DNA of 32,744 nucleotides from a virus: IMG/VR virus record IMGVR_UViG_3300032217_000296, positions 1 to 32,744 of that record; one strand, given 5' to 3'. Numbering within the stretch: position 1 is the stretch's first letter; every line of letters begins with the position of its first letter. The notes under the pieces are model-generated. The model ran no database searches, was not told the origin of the DNA, and saw nothing but the letters and a program-made list of their open reading frames with translations. The translations under genes and the position numbers were made by a program. Of the stretch, positions 3,648 to 11,631 are shown piece by piece.

Positions 3648-3902
3648 TTAATTTTTAATGCGTAATCCAAATTGTAAATCAAACCAATTAAATGTATCTT
3701 CAGCTCTTTGTTTTCTACACTTAAATACCTTTTTAATAAGAGGAATTGCATAAACTTTAAATGCATCATGTTGTTCCTGTGTCATGGTCCATTTACTGTA
3801 CCATTCTCTTGTCATATGTGCTTCTTGCATAGACTTATCTATCATACCTAATTGATAATCAAGTAGATGATCTGCTATGTTTTCTCTATTTATCTTTGCC
3901 AT
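3648..3902 (-). CDS. small conserved phage protein, unknown function
   Basis: An 84-residue, basic, helical-looking protein. The central part reads MTQEQHDAFKVYAIPLIKK and ends in a CRKQRAEDTFNWFDLQFGL segment. I recall very similar endings (a TF.WF.L.FGLR tail) in other Bacteroidota phages, where they are only listed as hypothetical. It overlaps the upstream gene by 17 bases and is followed two bases later by the small membrane-protein gene. No motif supports a function. Confidence 0.6.
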   Translation of the reverse strand: MAKINRENIADHLLDYQLGMIDKSMQEAHMTREWYSKWTMTQEQHDAFKVYAIPLIKKVFKCRKQRAEDTFNWFDLQFGLRIKN

Positions 3903-4116
3903 AGTTTTCTAGTTCTTTTCTAACATTCATCCAATGGTTAAGAATATGTGCTGGGCACCAATGAGTTATAGTTTCTATTGTCTTATCTACAGAAAGAATT
4001 GCTGTAGATTTAGCTATCAATGTAACTTTATCCATATTTATTTCATGTCCCATTGAAGCTAGTACAGCTAATGAGAATTCAGCAATCATAAAATTTGCTT
4101 GTTGTTTTGCTTCCAT
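3886..4116 (-). CDS. small protein, unknown function
   Basis: A 76-residue protein with a helical N-terminal half (KQQANFMIAEFSLAVLASMG) and a C-terminal segment HWCPAHILNHWMNVRKELENYG. It begins on a TAATG junction with the gene upstream and overlaps the gene downstream by 17 bases, so it is part of the same leftward message. Histidines and a cysteine cluster in the HWCPAH region, which is too little to call a metal site. No family recognised. Confidence 0.5.
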   Translation of the reverse strand: MEAKQQANFMIAEFSLAVLASMGHEINMDKVTLIAKSTAILSVDKTIETITHWCPAHILNHWMNVRKELENYGKDK

Positions 4117-4292
4117 TAGATTCTTTTAATTATATAATCATTAAATTTGTCTATATCAAACTTACTATCAATAGCTTCAAAGAACTTCTTATAAGCCCAA
4201 TAGTAATCTGATGCTGTTGGATATCTATGTCCATTAGCTATGCAATCATCTATTACTAGATCTGCAGCTATTTTAAATTGTGATTTGCCCAT
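4116..4292 (-). CDS. small protein (58 aa) between PolB and the next gene, unknown function
   Basis: A short ORF starting MGKSQFKIAADLVIDDCIAN and containing GHRYPTASDYYWAYKKFF. It is joined to the DNA polymerase gene on one side and to the next gene on the other by one-base TAATG overlaps, which strongly supports it being real and translationally coupled. The composition is acidic and aromatic with no cysteine cluster or membrane segment. No family or function recognised; position alone suggests a replication-associated accessory role. Confidence 0.55.
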   Translation of the reverse strand: MGKSQFKIAADLVIDDCIANGHRYPTASDYYWAYKKFFEAIDSKFDIDKFNDYIIKRI

Positions 4293-6244
4293 TAGAATAA
4301 ACTCATTTGATTAGGGTTAACAATAATTTTTCTCTTTCTACCTGCAAACTGTATCTTATCAATGATACGCTCTGCTTTCTCTATGTAATAGTCATAGTTT
4401 ACATTATCTAATGGATGGTCTTTGCTTAGTTTGTTACAAACATGCATTACCCATTCACCAGCTTCAACCTGACTAGCATCAGCTGCATTAGTAGTACACT
4501 CAGGATTCTTAATTTTCATTAGTTTCTCTCCTGTGTTAGATACATAATATCTGATGAGTTTATTATATACAGTTACCTTGCCTGCTTGTGTTCCTTCATA
4601 ATGAAAGTTGCTACTAGCTTTCTGCCTAAGGCAAAAGTCATAAATATTTGTGTGATTGCGAATGGTATCAGCCACAGGCACATCATTAACAAAGAAATGC
4701 TCCAATGCAATAGGCACAATACGAGCACTCTTATTCTTGTGTAACTCAAAATCCGTGAGAAAGTCACCTTTCTTTTTAATTTCACCATCTGTTTTAATTG
4801 CTAAATAGTCATTTACTGTGCTGAATATAATCTTCTGATAGTCTGTACGTTCTAGTTCATAGCTAGTTAGTTCCATCCACCATTTGTTTATCTCATGCAT
4901 TTTGTATGTGTCACTCTTTTTCAGAAAAATGGTGACACCATCTGTATTTGCAGATATAATATTTATACCAGCTAGTTCATATGCTTCGATCAACATCATT
5001 AAGCTTAGCTCACCTGTAATAGTGGTAAACATAGTTAGTTGTCTGTCATAGATCCAGTTCTGCATGTCAGATGATTTACCATACACTGAATTAACTGCAA
5101 GTTTTAATGCACCAACTATACCCTTAATCTTCTTATCTGTTTTAGCTAGTGGTTTGAGTTCCAACCTTTTATCAAACATTGCTTTATAGCCACGTAAGAA
5201 TTCTTTACCCAAGTGCTGAGGGTATCTACCATTGCTAATAATGATAGCAGGATAATAACTAGATACATCCCAATCAATAATTTTATTTTCATCATCAGCT
5301 TCAAATATTTTAGGTTTGTTCTCTGTATGTAAACCACCTTTCATAAATGAATAGGTGTTACCATAGAATTCAATAGACTCTTTAAAATCATCCTGTAACC
5401 CAAACACATTCTTCTTCATTCTCTTTAAGAATGCTTTAAGCTCTGGTGTCTGGAATTCCACATAATGAGCAATACAATTACTCATTTTAATTTCCTTTCT
5501 GAAATATCCTTTCTTTGGTAATTCACTATATATAATACCTTTCTCTTGGCAATAATACTTCTTAATCATCTCATCACCTATCTTACTATCTGAATAGTTA
5601 AGACACGGTATACCAAACTCAGCTTCAATATCTTGTCTTAGCTCAATTTGATTGTTACCTTTGTATAATGGATGTTCAGTTTCACCAATAGTTACTAAAT
5701 AGAATTCATAGGTAGCATATATATCATTACGACAATAATCAATAGTTAGTTCTATTTCATCATCAGTCATGTTAGTTTTGGTATGGTGAATAGGCATCTC
5801 TTCAATGTTCTCCAGATCCATCTCAAACTCTAATCGTTTTAATGATACTCTTCTGTTCTTATTGTCATAATGATGCACCTTAAACAAATCTATTTGCTTA
5901 AAGCTTAACCATTCTTCTTTAAATTCAGGGAATACATCAAAGTTAGCATCATGAATAATATCTGCAGCTTTCTGAGCAATCATTGCACAAACTTCTAATG
6001 CACTTTGTTCATGCCAACCATTATGATTACGTATGATCCACTCAACTACTTGAGCATCAAAGCGTAAGTTATTATAGCCAACAAAATAGTGATCTGGATG
6101 TGCTTCTATGAATCTAACAAATGAGTCTATTTGATTTGTATTCTTGCTAACCTGGAACTCATGCCACTGTTGTGTCTCAGGATTATATAAACATACAAGA
6201 AACAGCTCCTGCATTGTTTCTATGTCATAGATGAGTACATTCAT
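4292..6244 (-). CDS. family B DNA polymerase with 3'-5' exonuclease
   Basis: The phage replicative polymerase. The proofreading domain shows Exo I DIET (7-10), Exo II YNNLRFD (57-63) and Exo III YCRND (170-174). The polymerase domain shows motif A DVSSYYP (326-332), motif B KLAVNSVYG (381-389), motif C ANTDG (432-436) and a KKKGDF segment further on that fits the KxY-type motif. At 650 residues it is small for the family, nearer the protein-primed enzymes in size than cellular PolB, but I see no clear TPR1/TPR2 insertions and would not claim protein priming. Motif C has Asn-Thr-Asp instead of Asp-Thr-Asp; the second, usually essential, Asp is kept. Crassvirales are known to carry either PolA or PolB, and this one is PolB. 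Confidence 0.92.
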   Translation of the reverse strand: MNVLIYDIETMQELFLVCLYNPETQQWHEFQVSKNTNQIDSFVRFIEAHPDHYFVGYNNLRFDAQVVEWIIRNHNGWHEQSALEVCAMIAQKAADIIHDANFDVFPEFKEEWLSFKQIDLFKVHHYDNKNRRVSLKRLEFEMDLENIEEMPIHHTKTNMTDDEIELTIDYCRNDIYATYEFYLVTIGETEHPLYKGNNQIELRQDIEAEFGIPCLNYSDSKIGDEMIKKYYCQEKGIIYSELPKKGYFRKEIKMSNCIAHYVEFQTPELKAFLKRMKKNVFGLQDDFKESIEFYGNTYSFMKGGLHTENKPKIFEADDENKIIDWDVSSYYPAIIISNGRYPQHLGKEFLRGYKAMFDKRLELKPLAKTDKKIKGIVGALKLAVNSVYGKSSDMQNWIYDRQLTMFTTITGELSLMMLIEAYELAGINIISANTDGVTIFLKKSDTYKMHEINKWWMELTSYELERTDYQKIIFSTVNDYLAIKTDGEIKKKGDFLTDFELHKNKSARIVPIALEHFFVNDVPVADTIRNHTNIYDFCLRQKASSNFHYEGTQAGKVTVYNKLIRYYVSNTGEKLMKIKNPECTTNAADASQVEAGEWVMHVCNKLSKDHPLDNVNYDYYIEKAERIIDKIQFAGRKRKIIVNPNQMSLF

Positions 6245-8372: not shown

Positions 8373-8991
8373 TGTCTGTTTTATCTTTAGGGTGATCAAA
8401 TGGCCATTCATCTTCAGATGTAAAACCTGCACCATCATATTCAGGCTCATCATCCATATCATCCCAATCATCTTCATCCTCTAATCCATCATCTAATGTA
8501 ATATCCCAATCATCAGATGATTTCTCCATTGGTATACTAAGCGTAACTTTCTCCATATATATTATTGGAATGGCTATTTCTTCACCATCTTCATCAATAG
8601 ATATATTAACTTCTATATCTATTGAACCATCATAGTTCTCTAATATGAAATTATAATCACTAACTTGTATATCTCTGAGTGTACCTTCTTCACCCTCTTC
8701 ATATTCAGCTCCTGGTTCATCATCCCACCAACCTATCACTTCAGGTTTGGCTAGTATGTTTGCAGCAGCATCAGGGTTTGATGTGACACTATATATATGT
8801 GGTTCAACAGGCCATCCATTGATCAATATATATGATTCTGTATCTCTTGGAACTTCTGTAAGCTCAAACACTTGATAATATTCTATATTTGTCTTGAGTT
8901 TACGCATACTAATCTTTCTTAAGAATAACATGCCTTCTTCTAGTTTTAATGGTATATATGATTGAAATACCAATTTTGCTTCTATGAACAT
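8359..8991 (-). CDS. acidic-tailed protein, unknown function
   Basis: A 210-residue, very acidic protein. The first 150 residues look like a beta-rich domain (YYQVFELTEVPRDTESYILI, then IDIEVNISIDEDGEEIAIPI). The last 60 residues are dominated by Asp, Glu and Trp (DDWDITLDDGLEDEDDWDDM) and end KDKTDNDPE. An acidic tail behind a compact domain is typical of single-stranded-DNA-binding proteins and of DNA mimics, but the usual SSB tail (DDDIPF-like) is absent. It follows a hairpin and a TAAATTTG element at 9065, and its leader is CACTAAAAACAAACAAAA. Function not assigned. Confidence 0.55.
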   Translation of the reverse strand: MFIEAKLVFQSYIPLKLEEGMLFLRKISMRKLKTNIEYYQVFELTEVPRDTESYILINGWPVEPHIYSVTSNPDAAANILAKPEVIGWWDDEPGAEYEEGEEGTLRDIQVSDYNFILENYDGSIDIEVNISIDEDGEEIAIPIIYMEKVTLSIPMEKSSDDWDITLDDGLEDEDDWDDMDDEPEYDGAGFTSEDEWPFDHPKDKTDNDPE

Positions 8992-9194: not shown

Positions 9195-9208
9195 TTAATG
9201 CTATATTA
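9195..9208. repeat. TTAATGCTATATTA 14-bp repeat, copy 1
   Basis: One of three identical intergenic copies (also at 11187-11200 on the other strand and at 18303-18316), with a shorter 12-base match at 9992-10003. It contains the dyad TAAT-N5-ATTA, so it could be bound by a dimeric regulator. This copy fills the gap between two leftward genes. Confidence 0.55.
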
Positions 9209-9502
9209 ATGTGTGTGTAAATTGTCAACCCATTGTTGATATACATCCTTCAATGGACCATTTTTAAGCTCTTTCATACAGTCATCATGACCTTGGAAGT
9301 AGCCAATAAATTGAATATCTCTAATGAACTCCTTAAAAAGGAATATAGCTATTAATACAAATGCTGTCCATACTAATGAACCAAGTGCTAATGTCTCAAG
9401 TGAAGGCTCTTTAAAGCCAAACATATATATTAACGTAAAGAACGCTAACATACTAAATAATATACCTCCATATAGAGGTATATATAATGTGAATTTCTTC
9501 AT
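9206..9502 (-). CDS. two-helix membrane protein, unknown function
   Basis: A 98-residue protein with two hydrophobic segments, GGILFSMLAFFTLIYMFGF (about 12-30) and LALGSLVWTAFVLIAIFLF (38-56), separated by a short acidic loop and followed by a polar cytoplasm-like tail (KEFIRDIQFIGYF, then QGHDDCMKELKNG). The size and hairpin topology fit several phage membrane proteins, including class II-type holins, but the long soluble tail and its position at the start of the leftward block argue against a lysis role. It follows the large non-coding region; the leader is AACAAACACACAATC. Function not assigned. Confidence 0.55.
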   Translation of the reverse strand: MKKFTLYIPLYGGILFSMLAFFTLIYMFGFKEPSLETLALGSLVWTAFVLIAIFLFKEFIRDIQFIGYFQGHDDCMKELKNGPLKDVYQQWVDNLHTH

Positions 9503-9551
9503 AACTGATTGATTGTGTGTTTGTTAATAAAAATGTGTTAAAATATATTCC

Positions 9552-9559
9552 TACCTTTG
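9552..9559 (+). promoter_or_regulatory. TACCTTTG promoter-like -7 element, rightward
   Basis: Identical to the -7 element of the rightward promoter at 11249 and one base different from that at 27495. No well-spaced TTTG lies upstream (the nearest is 28 bases away). It points into the structured non-coding region, with an expected start near 9566, so it is a candidate promoter for a plus-strand RNA there. Confidence 0.4.
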
Positions 9560-9579
9560 GTTAATATTAAAGGCTAATG

Positions 9580-10094
9580 ACAGAGATATATATTATCCCT
9601 CTGTACTCAGATGTAATAAGATAGATATACCTGTTACAATGATCATAAGCCTGTAGTAACACCCTTATATAAGAGTGCACTTTCTCATCTTATGATTGTA
9701 TATCTAAACATCTTATTACATCTGTCTATCCTTGGGAAATAGAAATGGTACATTAAATATATCTCGTAGACAAGAATAATCCAAACGTGCATAGGTTTCT
9801 ACAGTTGACGATTGTTCTGTCCCAGGAGATATATATATGATAGACAATAGTGGCACGATTACTAAACCATATTAGAGCAGTTCATGTATATAACAGCCTA
9901 AACTTTATATATCTCTAATATAGAACATAGTCTTTCTATTAGAAGAGTACCAATCTTCTGTTTGTCTTTAACTATTATCTATCAATGTTATTTAATGCTA
10001 TATATATTGTATTGAGAACATATAATAGCTTGTTTGAAAATAGTGTTATATATCTGTGAGAGGTTCTACAGCATTTCTCATTTGCATGACAGAT
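9580..10094. ncRNA. candidate large structured non-coding RNA
   Basis: No ORF on either strand is convincing between 9503 and 10181, but inverted repeats tile it. P0: ACAGA 9580-9584 with 9600-9604, plus GATA/TATC inside. P1: a perfect 15-bp stem 9608-9622 with 9710-9724, containing nested helices 9623-9629/9699-9705, 9637-9640/9695-9698 and 9644-9649/9689-9694, and an apical hairpin 9660-9677. P2: 9757-9765/9826-9834 with a branch 9766-9769/9799-9802. P3: 9838-9851/9971-9984 (13 of 14 pairs), enclosing hairpins 9869-9921, 9920-9939 and 9941-9959. P4: 9997-10029. P5: 10052-10057/10089-10094 with GAGA/TCTC inside. The size and multibranched plan recall the ornate large RNAs of phages (ROOL, GOLLD), but I see no proof of membership. 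Strand is undecided: a TACCTTTG element points rightward, while some mismatches become G-U pairs only on the minus strand. Confidence 0.5.
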
Positions 10095-10137
10095 GAATAA
10101 ATCCCACCCTAAAGTCACAATATGACCCACCCATATA

Positions 10138-10174
10138 TATAATAAAGACTCTACCCAATTAAGGATAGAGTCTT
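10138..10174 (-). terminator. hairpin terminator of the 134-aa gene, leftward
   Basis: On the minus strand a 12-bp stem (AAGACTCTATCC with GGGTAGAGTCTT, one G-U pair) closes the loop TTAATT and is followed by TATTATATATA. It begins seven bases after the gene's stop. The U-tract is interrupted by A, so efficiency is uncertain, but the stem is strong and the G-U pair supports the leftward direction. Confidence 0.65.
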
Positions 10175-10181
10175 ATTAGCA

Positions 10182-10586
10182 TTAGATGCTTGCGTTAGCA
10201 AAAGCACTAATGTCTGCTTCAGTCAAACCAAGCTCTTTAACGCTCTTATTGAAATGAGCAGTGGCTTCAGCTTCTAATGTTTTGCTTTCATTAGCAGCAG
10301 CGAACATTGCATCTTTAGTTAAGTAAGCACTCTTTGCAGTGTTTCTCTTAACTAACACTAATGTTCCGTCAGCATTAGTTTGAGGAGTTTTAGTTCCTAC
10401 AATGAACGGAGTGATTTCTGTTTCTTCAGCAAGCAAGTAGAATGGGAATTTAACAGGTTGGTCTTTAGTAAAGCCTAAAGATTCCATAATTCTTCCTGCA
10501 ACGAAAGTTCTTGCACCGTCTGCTGTGTAAGCACTAAAGTTTCCACCTTCACTGAAGTTTCCACTTTGAATTGATAACTTTTTCAT
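10182..10586 (-). CDS. abundant small phage protein, unknown function
   Basis: A 134-residue protein, MKKLSIQSGNFSEGGNFSAY, with a Gly/Ser-rich N terminus, a beta-rich middle (VKFPFYLLAEETEITPFIVG) and a helical C terminus rich in Ala and Glu (SKTLEAEATAHFNKSVKELG). Codon use differs from its neighbours: AAC, TTC, TAC and GAC are frequent, as in the major capsid gene, which suggests high expression. It is a single-gene unit: a long leader with hairpins ahead of it, a poly-A-rich translation start (CTAAAAAAAAAG) and a terminator behind. As the first gene leftward of the origin-like region it may be made early and in quantity. A DNA-binding or host-takeover role is a guess; no family recognised. 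Confidence 0.6.
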   Translation of the reverse strand: MKKLSIQSGNFSEGGNFSAYTADGARTFVAGRIMESLGFTKDQPVKFPFYLLAEETEITPFIVGTKTPQTNADGTLVLVKRNTAKSAYLTKDAMFAAANESKTLEAEATAHFNKSVKELGLTEADISAFANASI

Positions 10587-11268: not shown

Positions 11269-11631
11269 ATGGAAACAGCCAACAAAAAGAAGATCATAGT
11301 TCAAAGACTTAAGAAGTCTGTAGAAGATAGTTATGCTTCAGCTGAGAAGTATTATAGTCTATTGTCTACAGTGAATGACTTAAAGCTTACAACAAGAGAG
11401 ATACAGCTTATAGCTTTTGCTGCTATAAAAGGCAACATCTCCTATGCCAATATCAGGGCGGAATTCTGTTCCAAATACGAATCCTCGCCACCCACAATTA
11501 ATAACATGATTTCCAAGCTCAAGAAGATGGGAATATTAATTAAGGATGGGACAAAGATAAAGGTGAATCCTATGATCATTCTAAACTTTGATAACGATCT
11601 AGTTTTAGATATAAGGATAGTACATGGATAA
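11269..11631 (+). CDS. conserved crAss-like winged-helix-type protein
   Basis: First gene of the rightward block, 120 residues. After a basic helical N terminus (ANKKKIIVQRLKKSVEDSY) comes LTTREIQLIAFAAIKGNISY, then SPPTINNMISKLKKMGILIK and a short beta ending. Helix-turn-helix followed by a two-strand wing is the likely fold (SPPTINNMISKL as recognition helix), so DNA binding is plausible. I recall closely similar TREIQLIAF..IKGNISY proteins just before the IHF-like gene in other crAss-like phages. A near-leaderless start behind a strong promoter suggests early expression by the host polymerase. The stop overlaps the next gene by eight bases. Confidence 0.65.
   Translation: METANKKKIIVQRLKKSVEDSYASAEKYYSLLSTVNDLKLTTREIQLIAFAAIKGNISYANIRAEFCSKYESSPPTINNMISKLKKMGILIKDGTKIKVNPMIILNFDNDLVLDIRIVHG

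Follow-up and report, generated by a model that had tools for sequence, protein, structure and literature searches.

We asked what a gene-free gap in a phage genome encodes, and on which of its strands. The gap lies in a window of 32,744 nt, which is the whole of a 32.7 kb viral record and belongs, by its gene content, to a crAss-like phage. By terminase, Leptolyngbya phage Lbo-JY46 is the closest named phage (41%), and the Cellulophaga phages phi17:2 and phi4:1 come next (32%). The genes for terminase, portal and major head protein are on the plus strand and run rightward; the minus strand, read leftward, carries the genes for DNA polymerase and a DnaB-like helicase together with many small ones. 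Between two ORFs of this strand lies the gap (9503-10181), in which there is no ORF of at least 60 aa. An initial annotation had seen in it a dedicated structured RNA, possibly of the ROOL or GOLLD kind or of a new large class.

Most of the predicted secondary structure is indeed there. The perfect 15-bp stem is exactly as described; a stem near 9757/9826 was confirmed, and so was the long 14-position stem with hairpins inside it. The comparison with dinucleotide shuffles that had been suggested gave z=-4.1 on the plus and -4.8 on the minus strand for 9580-10094. By segment, the values (plus/minus) were -4.5/-5.0 for 9597-9755, -4.9/-4.2 for 9756-9835 and -4.0/-2.7 for 9836-9985. The fold of 9986-10135, where two further closing hairpins were said to extend to 10094, is no better than chance (z +0.3 on plus, -1.1 on minus). 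Since the signal is strong in the first three segments and absent from the last, we consider the structure real over about 9597-9985. Because an inverted repeat can fold whichever strand is read, the strand cannot be told from energy alone.

A blastn search of the gap against phage records gave no match, and relatives were therefore reached via neighbouring proteins and motifs. Thirty-two loci were fetched with a protein query from ORF 11269-11631. The search with the protein of ORF 10182-10586 gave no pattern-confirmed relative; homologues of this ORF were detected by tblastn in the collected loci. When the gap was compared by blast with all loci, short conserved blocks appeared in constant order. 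DNA-pattern scans over 2.9 million viral contigs then returned over 119 stretches that contain block B, and the exact pattern of block D in 83 contigs, normally one per locus. Block A (CCCUCUGYACUCA on the plus strand), which was not in the search pattern, stands upstream of B in 127 of 142 B sites. In total, 125 distinct copies of the core were collected, and 47 trimmed cores were aligned (alignment A1). This pattern-based collection makes some of the invariances partly circular; the results on the A block, covariation, P1, strand and terminase are not touched by it.

As far as the sequences of relatives indicate, the gap is a chain of separate modules and not one domain, because relatives keep the modules and differ in spacing and intervening content. 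This bears directly on the proposal of one large ornate RNA transcribed rightward. The size, the multibranched fold and the folding excess would suit a ROOL- or GOLLD-like RNA, and both are, like the present case, phage intergenic structured RNAs. On the other hand, the modules are separate and differently spaced in relatives, the strand is the wrong one (see below), and the conserved core is a ribozyme-like unit of 60-240 nt; conserved-unit size, strand and organisation thus all differ from ROOL and GOLLD. Their covariance models gave no match at gathering threshold in the window and none at E<10 over 9500-10185 on both strands. The Rfam search as a whole found no family at E<10 except meaningless matches to snoRNA, miRNA and CRISPR-repeat models. 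We regard a single RNA of this kind as hardly conceivable. The features that we distinguish instead are collected in Table 1.

Table 1. Coordinates of the features of the gap and of the two genes that flank it.
Feature	Position	Strand	Remarks
Twister-type ribozyme (predicted), whole	9597-9755	-	5' UAA 9755-9753, 3' GAGGG 9601-9597; 125 copies, R1 match
Predicted cleavage site U9755/A9754 (5'-U|AAUGUACC...)	9754-9755	-	UAA invariant; equivalent to twister U-A site (PMC5408937)
P2, 5' strand UGUAC	9748-9752	-	pairs with GUACA 9606-9602
P2, 3' strand GUACA	9602-9606	-	covariation, pairing
P4 hairpin UCUAU-UUCCCAAGG-AUAGA	9725-9743	-	stems 9743-9739/9729-9725, loop L4 9730-9738
T1 pseudoknot, L4 side CCC	9734-9736	-	CCC/GGG 100% compatible
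GAGGG, putative catalytic G 9601, then AGGG	9597-9601	-	GGG 9599-9597 = T1; same in Rfam Twister-P5
Extra arm at P5 position	9608-9724	-	15-bp stem 9608-9622/9710-9724 and inner helices; length highly variable among copies
First gene downstream of ribozyme	9206-9502	-	98 aa; head of replication-side gene block; ORF table
Gene upstream of leader	10182-10586	-	134 aa; homologues at same place in relatives
Hairpin module E	9757-9834	-	internal loops CCUGGGACA/UGUCUACGAG and CGUCAACUGU/GCACGUUUGG
Locally structured stretch	9836-9985	-	14-position stem 9838/9971 enclosing hairpins
Element C	about 9997-10029	-	GCUAU...AUAGCAUUAA; small ORF follows directly in relatives
Element D	10103-10141	-	UUAUAUAUAUGGGUGGG-N16-GGGUGGG
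Terminator-like hairpin	10147-10172		between ORF 10182-10586 and leader; same place in relatives
Hairpin F	9554-9573	-	conserved inverted repeat between ribozyme and downstream gene

The most strongly conserved module comprises blocks A and B, which, according to the alignment, form a pseudoknotted three-way junction. Its minus-strand consensus reads UAA-UGYAC-CA-nn-[P4 5 bp]-UUCCCAAGG-[P4]-[arm]-A-GURCA-GAGGG, and our covariance model R1 matches the core of the window on that strand. That the gap holds a dedicated structured RNA was borne out by the compensating changes between relatives. In the 47-sequence alignment, 94.3% of the cells in paired positions are paired, and cells changed on both sides number 195, compared with 58 +/- 8 in shuffles; in slid registers pairing falls to 30-52%. 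Helix P2 is 100% paired in this alignment and covaries at pairs 3 and 5. Among all 125 copies, pair 3 is C-G in 100, U-A in 23, C-A in one and U-G in one, and pair 5 likewise switches between C-G and U-A. All five pairs of P4 covary (96.6% paired in the alignment), with up to four pair types per pair among the 125 copies, and so do all nine pairs at the base of the arm (87.9% paired). Full modules are 62-237 nt long, and almost all of this variation is in the arm.

The loop L4 reads UUCCCAAGG in 124 of 125 copies, and its CCC always faces GGG; since both are near-invariant, the full compatibility of T1 comes without independent support from covariation. UAA is invariant in the 47 aligned copies, partly by construction, because the search pattern for B contained these letters.

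The functional strand is the minus strand. The initial annotation had left the strand open with a leaning to plus, and three independent counts point the other way: the downstream gene is on the element's minus strand in 95 cases and opposite in 3; non-Watson-Crick cells are of the G·U type 32 times on the minus and 7 times on the plus strand; and of the modules, 94 have the lower fold energy on the minus strand, 23 on the plus strand. Moreover, in all 22 phage records in which both could be located, some of them with terminases of only 25-35% identity, the element is on the strand opposite to terminase (compared by hand). A reading of the motif as a three-way junction of the plus strand was rejected, since the neighbouring genes, the energies and the G·U counts all favoured minus. 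Nor is there support for a rightward transcript starting at the TACCTTTG of position 9552, given the strand and the lack of conservation of this octamer: the supposed promoter lies in hairpin F, on its other strand, and relatives have CGCCTTTG or ACCTTTG there.

The same counts bear on a role at the level of DNA, for example as a replication origin or as an N4-like hairpin promoter for a virion RNA polymerase, which would also conserve inverted repeats. The element sits at the boundary between early and late gene blocks, D contains AT-rich TATATATA and GGGTGGG repeats, and early crAss-phage genes are transcribed by a virion RNA polymerase in a manner that resembles phage N4 (PMC10136315). Yet the non-Watson-Crick cells are strand-asymmetric, as an RNA would give, and copies occur at various intergenic sites, one to two per record. 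For the core we therefore hold a DNA element to be very improbable; for D, C and F such a role is possible.

What kind of RNA is the core? The definition of a twister ribozyme asks for P1, P2 and P4 (P0, P3 and P5 are optional), for two pseudoknots, for cleavage at a U-A site and for a catalytic guanine; P1 can be missing without loss of cleavage (PMC5408937). A scan for a twister-like loop led to loci with seven Rfam Twister-P5 calls, whose aligned letters are GCAGAGGG / UAAUGC-G-GCA / GUCCCAAGCC. The counterparts in the phage element are RCAGAGGG / UAAUGY-A-CCA / UUCCCAAGG; 23 of 29 letters are identical (binomial P about 1e-9). The active-site words stand in the topological order of twister, open at P1 (type-P1 order). 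The element shares with the twister clan (CL00120: twister-P1 RF03160, Twister-P5 RF02684) the UAA with the U-A site, the UGC/GCA side of P2, the loop L4 UCCCAAG on P4, GAGGG, the T1 pseudoknot and a short P1 in the expected register.

To test the P1 that twister predicts, we scored runs of at least three pairs directly flanking UAA and GAGGG per register against expectation. They occur in register 0,0 in 24.6% of copies (9.9% expected, z about 6), in register 1,1 in 26.2% (7.4% expected, z about 9) and, on the same diagonal, in register 2,2 in 16.4% (7.0% expected, z about 4). Off the diagonal there is mild enrichment at 3,0 only (12.3% vs 6.7%) and none in the other registers. A cruder test that allowed any register gave no signal. 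The support for P1 is thus statistical, and the window's own P1 is weak.

There are also several differences from the annotated twisters, in which P5 is present in 1% and P3 in 78% (PMC6154101). The phage element lacks P3, and nearly all of its copies carry an arm at the position of P5, an architecture that is rare. It is AT-rich, its P1 has only 2-4 bp, its P2 apparently has 5 bp instead of 4, and L4 ends in AAGG opposite CC where twister has AAGC opposite GC. The apparent fifth P2 pair, C8-G55, covaries in three copies. For the second pseudoknot, T2, CC opposite GG could pair; position 8 covaries with position 55 of P2, not with L4.

The Rfam models do not detect the element. The twister models gave no match at E<10 in the window and in two compact copies, and in none of 32 phages did RF03160 match the element at E<=1. 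The cut-off of this model is very strict (67.2 bits), and it likewise fails to call two cores of twister-like, type-P1 form (L312 and L315). Conversely, R1 at E<=1 matched neither these two cores nor the Rfam-called twisters of L313 and L314. The Rfam-called twisters are circularly permuted. With no match between R1 and the Rfam twisters, the case for homology is built on the active-site letters, the topology and the P1 test rather than on a profile match. As a side observation, about 4 kb of the viral contig L314 (5662-9745) contain six ribozymes that Rfam calls Twister-P5.

A structured leader that controls early genes and does not cleave, its twister fold being shared or convergent, has to be considered here. 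A compact pseudoknotted three-way junction conserved ahead of genes on the same strand is what a riboswitch-like or protein-binding leader would look like, and the extra P2 pair, the uncertainty about T2 and the missing Rfam twister match could be taken the same way. Conservation, though, falls exactly on the active-site letters of twister (UAA, GAGGG, UCCCAAG), and an excess of P1 pairs is seen in the register that twister predicts. A gene-specific switch is, in addition, unlikely because the downstream genes are not conserved. We therefore consider a non-cleaving leader improbable, and very probably the core is a twister-type self-cleaving ribozyme on the minus strand within an early-unit leader that fills the gap. 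Cleavage itself we infer from the likeness to twister.

We then looked at how the element is distributed. Of 48 phage records, 38 contain one or two matches to R1 each; the carriers include close relatives (terminase 76-88%) and distant crAss-like phages (25-35%). There is about one copy per genome, at various intergenic sites. The element has the same placement in many distantly related freshwater phages. In Leptolyngbya phage Lbo-JY46, of which 30 kb were examined, no convincing copy was found (E=0.43). Among cellular genomes, an exact-pattern search of one genome per species (84,980 species) gave 45 matches, 44 of which were due to chance or coding sequence; the one real match is on a 4.6-kb contig of a freshwater MAG, with a perfect P4 and the conserved letters around it. 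In the literature searched, which did not extend to subscription papers, we found no report of twister in crAss-like phages.

The gap is most likely the leader of the minus-strand early or replication transcription unit of this crAss-like phage. Its start is probably marked by D, to judge from the position of D just downstream of the place of the 3' end of ORF 10182-10586. D has the general form UUAUAUAUAWGGGUGGG-N10-26-GGGUGGG, although its strict letters are partly a construct of the search pattern; it may form a G-quadruplex or act as an initiation signal. The stretch between C and E is replaced in four relatives (L098, L103, L089, L093) by a small ATG-initiated frame. Module E was also found in at least four other loci, L100, L333, L334 and L346, on the early strand (opposite to terminase) where this could be checked, and folds with z=-3.5 to -5.2; apart from the window these four are the real ones, most pattern matches to E being coding coincidences. 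The internal loops of the E hairpin are invariant (AAUCGUCAACUGU / CACGUUUGG). For the protein encoded at 9206-9502, downstream of the leader, there was no PHROG match; its sequence suggests a likely membrane protein. The tRNA and tmRNA scan of the whole window found none.

How would a ribozyme act in this leader? An early polymerase would transcribe leftward from about D, and the ribozyme would fold while the leader is being transcribed and cut between U9755 and A9754. The cut would leave two RNAs: an upstream leader RNA made of the D-C-middle-E modules, with a 2',3'-cyclic phosphate at its end, and a downstream mRNA that would keep the folded ribozyme as its structured 5'-hydroxyl end. Such an end would resist 5'-dependent decay. 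We see about even chances that processing and stabilising early mRNA is what the cut is for. The downstream gene differs between phages, the protein of 9206-9502 having one weak homologue, which argues for a general role in processing or stability rather than for control of a single gene.

In relatives, but not in the window, L4 carries a further conserved domain, placed between P4 and UCCCAAGG. It has the form GUGGAUAURAAGACU-UCUUA...UAAGA-UGURAAACCAC-(A)CUGAUUA...UAAUCAG-(U)C. Its 5' sequence was found by scanning at 43 distinct places; at 38 of these a twister 5' end stands immediately before it. In the 30 copies that could be resolved, P4 still pairs and varies. The second helix of the domain covaries, even in length, with a matched A/U extension in 13 copies, and an asymmetric internal loop is invariant. 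In the loci scanned with Rfam, there was no match at the domain. Examples are L089 3025-3330, L154 8245-8470, L304 12512-12710 and L431-L476; about 40 phages are involved.

The L4 domain may be a natural sensor, which would make the whole a candidate aptazyme, or a stabilising peripheral domain. A truly allosteric domain could sense a ligand or a protein and switch the cleavage of early transcripts. That these phages carry a distinct twister subclass whose members include natural allosteric ribozymes is a doubtful proposition at this stage. The established example of a naturally regulated nucleolytic ribozyme is glmS, and the variants with the L4 domain are candidates for the same category. 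To our knowledge, few biological roles of twister ribozymes have been described. Here, what is predicted to be a divergent twister occupies a single strategic position, at the early gene block, as a fixed feature of an abundant freshwater crAss-like lineage and of relatives with terminase identities of only 25-35%, and Rfam annotation does not see it. With this element, one can test concretely how a phage might use a small ribozyme: for leader processing, for protection of mRNA 5' ends or as a regulated switch.

Other small ribozymes of phages provide a comparison. The theta ribozymes of gut phages are also small and self-cleaving, are widespread in Bacteroidota phages and have been proposed to process phage RNA; they have an HDV fold and are located at tRNA 3' ends (PMC10879173), whereas the element described here has a predicted twister fold and heads the early block. 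Hatchet ribozymes (RF02678), which have another fold and do not occur in the window, were found at Rfam level on the same strand as the twister element in three contigs that carry it (L122 6387-6553, L131 191-325 and L146 46-208). One of these contigs, L131, also has a tmRNA (Rfam 62.7 bits) and tRNAs at 8424-8820. The strongest clustering of the element itself was seen in the phage contig L169, with three twister-like copies within 1.3 kb (3715-4985).
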